Both the position numbers and the translations under genes were made by a program. From positions 1 through 64,000 of the forward strand of contig JAQYWK010000001.1 of the NCBI GenBank assembly GCA_030145055.1: DNA of 64,000 nucleotides. Reading direction: 5' to 3'. This DNA is from Desulfovibrio sp. Lineage in GTDB: Bacteria; Desulfobacterota; Desulfovibrionia; Desulfovibrionales; Desulfovibrionaceae. The notes under the pieces were generated by a model. It did no database searches. It was not told where the DNA came from and saw only the letters and a list, made by a program, of their open reading frames with translations. Numbering within the stretch: the stretch's first letter is position 1; the number at the start of each line of letters is the position of its first letter. Positions 11,399 to 11,797 of the stretch are shown one piece after another.

Positions 11399-11431
11399 GC
11401 TTTCCGACCGGGAAGCAGCTTACTAGCCTCA
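11399..11431 (-). promoter_or_regulatory. SECIS-like hairpin after fmdB UGA
   Basis: On the minus strand the fmdB reading frame ends TGA-GGC-TAG. About 14 bases after the TGA comes a 7-bp hairpin (TGCTTCC, loop CGGTC, GGAAAGCA with one bulged A). Its apical GGU lies 23-25 bases from the U of UGA, close to the bacterial SECIS geometry. It is not needed as a terminator because a better one lies at 11329-11364. Reading through would add only Sec-Gly. Tentative. Confidence 0.25.
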
Positions 11432-11641
11432 GGAAAACCCGCTGGGACCACATCCTTCAATAGGAGGAGCGTATGATCCGCTGCCACTACTTGCGCTAGC
11501 CGATTTACAGCAAGCCGATAAAAGCTTCACAGTATCCGGACTTTTGCAATCCGCGCATTTAGGTGACTCAGTACTCGAAGCGGATACAAGCTCTTCAAAA
11601 ACTTGTCCGCATTCGTTACATTTATACTCATAAATAGGCAT
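11429..11641 (-). CDS. FmdB-family zinc ribbon protein
   Basis: Small protein of 70 residues of the FmdB/CxxC_CxxC_SSSS family. The N-terminus MPIYEYKCNECG starts a four-cysteine zinc ribbon (CNEC at 8-11, CADC at about 29-32), followed by LLSACC and a low-complexity Ser/Gly tail ending GCGPSGFS. The function of the family is unsettled (putative regulators). The AAGGA ribosome site lies inside the preceding small ORF, whose TAG is 3 bases before this ATG, so the two are coupled. The stop is UGA, followed by one glycine codon and TAG, and by a hairpin resembling a SECIS. A C-terminal Sec-Gly is therefore possible but weakly supported. Confidence 0.85.
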   Translation of the reverse strand: MPIYEYKCNECGQVFEELVSASSTESPKCADCKSPDTVKLLSACCKSASASSGSGSYAPPIEGCGPSGFS

Positions 11642-11644
11642 AAA

Positions 11645-11797
11645 CTAATCGTCCTTACGACCGAGAATATCTTTATCAGACTGCGAACCGCAGTCTTTTG
11701 AAGGTCCTCACGGACTAATGCCGAGCTTAGGAAGAACGACTTTGAGCAGCACAAATACTGCTGCGCATACAGCAACTAGTGATAAAATATCCATCAT
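11645..11797 (-). CDS. candidate small membrane selenoprotein (in-frame UGA)
   Basis: ORF of 50 codons whose codon 30 is TGA (11708-11710). Before it lies a 29-residue start with a clear membrane helix (about 4-22, ILSLVAVCAAVFVLLKVVL). After it the frame continues GPSKDCGSQSDKDILGRKDD to TAG at 11645-11647, three bases before the fmdB ATG. Read as selenocysteine, the product has U30 and C36 (U-x5-C) on a short soluble tail. A perfect 7-bp hairpin (AGACTGC, loop GGTTC, GCAGTCT) follows the UGA. Its GGU occupies positions 22-24 counted from the U, as in the SECIS of E. coli fdhF; the bulged U17 of that element is absent. Alternatives are a 29-residue peptide with a spacer before fmdB, or a chance hairpin. 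The role is unknown. Confidence 0.6.
11678..11710 (-). promoter_or_regulatory. putative bacterial SECIS element
   Basis: UGA at 11708-11710, then arms at 11690-11696 and 11678-11684 closing the loop GGUUC at 11685-11689. All seven pairs are Watson-Crick. The apical G23-U24 position fits what SelB recognises in E. coli formate dehydrogenase mRNA. It lies inside the continued reading frame. Confidence 0.55.

Follow-up and report, generated by a model that had tools for sequence, protein, structure and literature searches.

Is the UGA at codon 30 of a very small gene beside fmdB a stop signal, or is it read as selenocysteine (Sec)? The gene lies on the minus strand of the window, by which we mean the whole 64,000-nucleotide stretch of Desulfovibrio sp. 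DNA that was analyzed (contig JAQYWK010000001.1, positions 1 to 64,000). Read directly from the DNA, the frame at 11645-11797 would give a product of 50 residues, MMDILSLVAVCAAVFVLLKVVLPKLGISP-U-GPSKDCGSQSDKDILGRKDD. It starts with the ATG at 11797, the alternative being a second ATG one codon later (11794), and it ends with the TAG at 11647-11645, which is separated by a gap of 3 nt from the fmdB ATG at 11641. In this protein, PKLG lies at the end of the helix, the UGA comes after it, and Cys36 lies six residues past Sec. A preliminary description of the locus had placed a TGA at codon 30 with 20 more codons up to the TAG, and had proposed a membrane helix followed by U-x5-C on a short tail; the coordinates read from the DNA agree with this, and both the helix (predicted at residues 2-24) and Cys36 are in place (Table 1). 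We confirmed that observation, which proved to be larger in extent than had been stated.

Comparison with relatives makes it almost certain that the window gene is a Sec-containing member of an uncatalogued family of small single-pass membrane selenoproteins. It is this comparative evidence, and not the fold energy of the locus, that carries the reading beyond chance. The predicted layout of the family is a membrane helix of ~23 residues that runs up to a conserved P-[KR]-x-G turn; Sec generally lies 4 residues past the G of the turn, and a Cys usually 5-7 residues past Sec, on a short tail whose average charge is basic. Among 228 distinct sequences, the first Cys past Sec was at U+5, +6 or +7 in 208; a Cys was present within 12 residues in 216, and none within that distance in 12. 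A subgroup of the window's genus (L015, L018 and L020-L024) has no Cys close after Sec, and its Cys is mostly near the C-terminal end (GGCGG-like); the stem of the hairpin following the UGA is retained there with a different sequence, at only 4 bp in L024.

Table 1. Features of the locus, in coordinates of the window
Feature	Position	Strand	Basis or remark
Predicted selenoprotein gene, complete, 50 codons + TAG	11645..11797	-	Homologues with one TGA in 16/16 genomes of the genus
TGA codon 30, predicted to be read as Sec	11708..11710	-	Same column TGA in 79, Cys in 1 (best 80 of 144 loci)
Predicted membrane helix, residues 2-24 (MDILSLVAVCAAVFVLLKVVLPK)	11726..11794	-	Hydrophobic sequence and AlphaFold2 model
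Post-Sec tail, 20 codons	11648..11707	-	Cys36, likely second redox residue
Bacterial SECIS-like hairpin, 8-bp stem, GUU loop at nt 23-25	11678..11696	-	Fold and family-wide stem test
fmdB, zinc ribbon, downstream neighbor	11429..11641	-	TIGR02605 52.1 bits, PF09723 56.6 bits; outside the conserved unit

Relatives of the gene and the residue at the UGA column

When the source genome (3.9 Mb, 7 contigs) was checked for selA, selB, selC and selD, all four were found. The selA gene (607.6 bits) adjoins selB (374.7 bits), the tRNA-Sec encoded by selC scores 80.1 bits, where the gathering score is 47, and selD scores 329.6 bits. The selD gene (G000:C1:941762-942682) has one in-frame TGA, so that it is probably a further selenoprotein gene.

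How far does the family extend? The window protein, with C in place of U, was searched against 199 genomes of the family Desulfovibrionaceae, and matches at E <= 10, many of them weak, were obtained in 107. All 16 genomes of the window's genus were matched, and the best match of each has exactly one TGA in the aligned frame. A 17-row profile found relatives in at least 79 of the 199 family genomes at E <= 0.01 and in at least 121 of 348 genomes of the class at E <= 0.001; a 29-row profile with X at the UGA column found them in at least 168 of 395 genomes of the phylum at E <= 0.001, representing at least 113 of 246 genera. These profile counts, from family to phylum, are lower bounds, as the candidates were scored only in part in many genomes. 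Nearly every one of the profile matches listed carries the TGA.

A scan of named genomes with one helix pattern, from which the UGA column was left out, found 144 related loci, of which the best 80 were kept: UGA is present in 79 of them and Cys in the remaining one, L297 of Planctomycetales 71-10. As labeled in the records, these loci come from Desulfacinum, Geobacter, Desulfuromonas, Pelovirga and Syntrophobacterales, and also from Aquisphaera insulae, Singulisphaera, Spirochaetes and one Acidobacteriota, the labels of metagenome bins being taken as given; the UGA-form set includes L222, from Desulfacinum infernum DSM 9756 of the Thermodesulfobacteriota, whose protein is identical to that of G505, a genome of the window's phylum. 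Another member, L280, is from Pelovirga terrestris. Among 294 genomes of the Planctomycetota, the phylum of Aquisphaera, there were 27 matches, namely, 22 UGA forms, 3 Cys forms and 2 false hits, which leaves 25 true ones. The relatives reach far past the window's family and into more than one bacterial phylum. A pattern scan of contigs with the window protein alone, using window-specific patterns with Cys for Sec, found no relative.

Several matches were set aside or reassigned. The TGA-less match of G131 and the second match of G167 are not family members, nor is the second, TGA-less match of G080, which is a PF12669 protein; the TGA-less matches of G843 and G985 (Planctomycetota) are false, being parts of frames ~810 codons long. 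The match of G230 had seemed free of TGA because its alignment stopped short of the codon, which is present. The gene occurs in two adjacent copies ~200 bases apart in G029, G083 and G134. Two loci (L176 and L220, in genomes G546 and G627) have two in-frame UGAs (PSUGAP... and PTUDGPSCSIG) with a hairpin after each, and are likely two-Sec versions.

In the loci read, the UGA column never contained TAA or TAG; the codon found there in relatives is UGA or, in rare cases, one for Cys. Cys forms number five in all (G036, L297, G918, G975 and G904), four of which come without SelB over the cut-off and one, G036, with it. Among 12 named genomes, SelB was over the cut-off in 11, each with a UGA form, and the twelfth, with the Cys form L297, gave a SelB match of 166 bits, under the cut-off. 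In 26 further Planctomycetota genomes, a SelB match at E <= 1e-60 accompanied 20 of 21 UGA forms, none of three Cys forms and both false hits; the UGA form without such a match (G745) is from an assembly of 2.1 Mb only. When these other groups were pooled, SelB was found with 31 of 32 UGA forms compared with 0 of 4 Cys forms (p = 8.5e-5, kinship ignored), and the addition of G036 brought the Cys forms to 1 of 5 (p = 3.7e-4, kinship ignored). Similarly, within the family, SelB is present in 73 of 77 genomes with a TGA-bearing match (E <= 0.01) compared with 94 of 122 others (p = 6.6e-4, kinship ignored), 12 of the 32 SelB-negative genomes being so counted by absence among the matches listed. 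For the other 4 of these 77 (G022, G077, G109 and G174), which are drafts of 220-520 contigs, no SelB match reached E <= 1e-60. Sec appears to be kept nearly always at the same position across the family, and Cys appears to be rare.

The coding sequence and the hairpin after the UGA

Is the frame still protein-coding beyond the UGA? We compared 59 close pairs, ungapped and with each sequence used once. The differences at codon positions 1, 2 and 3 were 112, 88 and 234 after the UGA, and 162, 47 and 411 before it. The codon changes were 149 synonymous and 176 non-synonymous after the UGA, compared with 343 and 165 before. The 112/88/234 split means that the excess at third positions persists past the UGA under a weaker constraint, and the downstream frame is conserved in relatives.

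The hairpin that follows the UGA is AGACUGCG-GUU-CGCAGUCU. The preliminary description had put a hairpin at the position of a bacterial SECIS element, and this part stands; it had given a 7-bp stem with a GGU loop at nucleotides 22-24, whereas the last G-C pair closes too, which yields 8 bp and GUU at 23-25, counted from the U of the UGA. The 58-nt stretch at 11655-11712 folds at -17.6 kcal/mol (z = -2.46), with 4 of 200 dinucleotide shuffles as good, and this fold energy taken alone is only modest evidence.

The relatives were compared by a stem test. Each of 210 distinct windows, drawn from 232 entries, was scored by its longest unbroken stem, the loop being required to span 3-6 nt and to begin 18-30 nt from the UGA; the null consisted of 200 synonymous-codon reshufflings, with the codon usage pooled over the same windows. 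Stems of at least 5 bp were found in 182 of the 210 windows, compared with a shuffle mean of 70.8 (sd 6.5; the largest of the 200 runs was 87). At least 6 bp were reached in 148 windows (shuffle mean 33.2) and at least 7 bp in 114 (shuffle mean 14.4). With the loop shifted to nucleotides 34-42, a control clipped by the 48-nt length of the sequences used, only 2 windows had 5 bp or more. As a further control, the in-frame TGA that comes next in the same ORFs was followed by a stem of at least 6 bp in 15 of 78 cases, compared with 161 of 229 for the Sec UGAs (Planctomycetota windows included). The 125 windows with a Cys codon at U+5, tested in one fixed register, had 589 of 1000 cells paired; column shuffles gave 451 (sd 12) and slid partners gave 345-444, several registers being mixed in those windows. 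The loop mostly starts at nucleotides 22-28, and does so alike with the Cys codon in fifth, sixth or seventh place past the UGA; in 189 of the 210 windows, one of its first two nucleotides is a G. On the other hand, the fold energies of these 210 windows at full length had a median z of only -1.15 against synonymous shuffles, with p <= 0.05 in 60 (28.6%); stem length at a set position is the better test of the hairpin. The comparison indicates that the hairpin is very likely selected as RNA across the relatives, and SelB with Sec-tRNA would read UGA codon 30 by way of this hairpin, a step that the comparison supports.

In the five Cys forms, the stems at the SECIS position measured 7 bp in L297, 6 bp in G904 and 3-4 bp in G036, G918 and G975. 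The 7-bp stem of L297 (match at 1457), a Planctomycetales Cys form, would fit a recent loss of Sec and is possibly a fossil SECIS.

The alternative that the UGA is an ordinary stop, as it is in the standard code, ending a 29-residue membrane peptide of a kind that may exist, with the hairpin serving the fmdB operon as a regulatory element or a terminator, is scarcely credible, given that TAA and TAG are never at this column in the loci read, that the post-UGA frame still encodes a similar protein where the neighbors differ from fmdB, and that Cys takes the column in 4 genomes in which no SelB exceeds the cut-off.

Neighboring genes and known families

Could the selenoprotein work together with FmdB, the product of its coupled downstream gene? 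A start of an FmdB-like gene lies 3-4 nt past the stop in 10 of the 16 loci of the genus, as a partnership would have it. However, none was found within 60 nt of the stop in the other 6, two of which (L014 and L016) have only MTIYE-stop or MLIYE-stop at the place of fmdB just past the TAG; in these, fmdB seems to have decayed beside an intact selenoprotein gene. Elsewhere, the adjoining genes are purC, hisD, rpsF-rpsR-rplI-dnaB, histidine kinases, a DegT-type aminotransferase and others, and a partnership with FmdB is highly improbable. The coupled-operon spacing proposed earlier is thus borne out for the 3-nt gap, but the coupling is local and not general. The window protein itself gave no match to the FmdB family profiles (TIGR02605 and PF09723) at E <= 10. 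The pertinent part of the GOS survey describes an FmdB-family selenoprotein with Sec in FmdB itself (PMC2398784), whereas here Sec sits in a separate protein upstream of fmdB.

No constant neighbor was found in the loci compared. Elsewhere in the family, other genera often have the gene near purC and hisD or after a DegT-type aminotransferase, and ahead of rpsF-rpsR-rplI-dnaB (rpsF named by reading). A histidine kinase cluster is upstream in 13 loci, the window's genus among them, and a VOC-ccdA-tlpA-like run is downstream on the other strand, also in 13 loci (names by reading of the sequences); both look lineage-specific. In other groups, dacA-like genes (name by reading) are downstream on the other strand. 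Same-strand neighbors fell into clusters upstream in 49 and downstream in 38 of 180 loci, some of these clusters being meaningless overlapping ORFs. In seven loci (L175, L194, L265, L266, L275, L280 and L292), the distance from the end of a same-strand histidine kinase gene to the start is 65-89 nt, and that gene is preceded by a gene of a regulator cluster, names again by reading; an operon with a two-component system is possible there. The neighborhood pointed to no function, the recurrent neighbors being housekeeping genes or dependent on the clade.

Is the family already known under another name? When the window protein, a set of 17 members, a set of 10 members and 4 Cys forms were scanned against Pfam and NCBIfam, only weak hits came up, the best, at E 0.0045, being to the NCBIfam PP0621 family in 2 of the 10 members. 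A 2026 review (PMC13188914) tabulates 119 prokaryotic selenoprotein families and subfamilies; its table, in which some entries give no motif, contains neither a motif that places Cys 5-7 residues past Sec nor an entry presented as a single-helix protein of 45-60 residues. What those families share with the present one is the UGA, a bacterial-type SECIS hairpin, SelB, and Sec with Cys in a short motif. No published description of the family was found in the running text of the open-licence papers searched, passages of PMC12013277, PMC2398784, PMC1914089, PMC1242214, PMC1088965, PMC2702500 and PMC8318568 among them. The scans, the review table and the literature point to a new family whose layout is unusual and which uses Sec with unusual strictness, in line with the earlier statement that no described family is known to have such a layout.

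One known group deserves consideration, the FeoB-associated Cys-rich membrane proteins (PF12669), of which the present family might be a Sec-bearing branch with a metal-binding tail beside an iron transporter. Like the present proteins, they have ~50 residues, one N-terminal helix and a Cys-bearing tail; furthermore, the PF12669 protein L331 (G080:C1:2808406-2808537) was a weak profile match (E 0.0084), and hhalign gave a probability of 84.9%. However, by reading of the alignment, the hhalign similarity is mostly within the hydrophobic helix, and no match to PF12669 was obtained for the window protein (E <= 10) or for the 17 and 10 members and 4 Cys forms (E <= 1). L331, the one example compared, has a Cys-rich tail and no Sec, whereas the tail of the present family has as a rule one Cys and no Cys-rich run. 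FeoB is also absent among the labeled neighbors, the labels having been assigned without a targeted FeoB search. A distant relation between L331 and the present family is possible, but membership in PF12669 seems quite improbable.

In layout only, the family resembles the eukaryotic SELENOK and SELENOS, selenoproteins that are also small and membrane-bound and carry Sec close to the C-terminus. These depend on eukaryotic Sec insertion and have other sequences and sizes. Glycine reductase selenoprotein A, another point of comparison, is a redox protein of a different family. It was once held to be the sole selenoprotein without Cys homologues, and Cys homologues have since been reported, according to the relevant passages of PMC12013277. 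In SELENOS, Sec is proposed to form a selenosulfide with a Cys close to it (PMC3628699).

Topology, putative function and significance

Where would the Sec residue be, and what might it do? The AlphaFold2 model of the window protein has one helix at residues 2-24 and nothing structured after it, with a mean pLDDT of 67.1 (85 for residues 1-10 and 87 for residues 11-20). Over 129 proteins, the mean net charge was -0.6 at residues 2-4 and +2.6 from the P-x-x-G turn to U+20. By the positive-inside rule, we infer from this charge pattern that the tail and its Sec are on the cytoplasmic side, close to the membrane.

A helix-only model with a cytoplasmic Sec near the membrane suggests a putative membrane-tethered Sec/Cys redox site, a function that we propose tentatively and at somewhat less than an even chance. 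Sec would attack an oxidant or a disulfide at the membrane surface, the Cys would close a selenenylsulfide with Sec, and a cellular reductase would reopen it. The 12 of 228 sequences in which no Cys follows within 12 residues weaken the selenenylsulfide model.

The main rival on function is that Sec is no catalyst but a tether or recognition element for a partner, as in an adaptor. The very small size, the single helix and the tail without predicted structure would suit such a role, as would the sequences whose second Cys is not nearby, and an adaptor role has been discussed for eukaryotic SELENOK. We found no specific counterpoint, except that an adaptor role alone would leave the near-absence of Sec-to-Cys replacement unexplained; overall, it appears rather unlikely.

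Why has the family been missed? Its absence from the catalogues can be explained by the tiny size of the gene, with 29 codons before the UGA, and by the near lack of Cys relatives with which the usual searches could pair it. In the sections of PMC12013277 that bear on this point, the authors of deep-Sep state that Cys homologues now seem to exist for every known selenoprotein and that any selenoprotein lacking them may be filtered out by their own method. With one Cys form among the best 80 of 144 loci, the present family would be near that blind spot.

Very probably, then, bacteria hold an almost-always-Sec family that the catalogues have missed, present in a large share of the Thermodesulfobacteriota, also in Planctomycetota and, by record titles, in more phyla. 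It would be a bacterial counterpart, in layout, of the small eukaryotic membrane selenoproteins, with a membrane-surface chemistry that is seldom taken over by Cys where the Sec machinery is present. If so, the selenoproteomes of sulfate reducers, Geobacter-like bacteria and Planctomycetes would be undercounted, and small selenoproteins may go missed as a class. With ~50 residues, one helix and one Sec, the protein would also offer a compact model for testing why Sec, and not Cys, is used.
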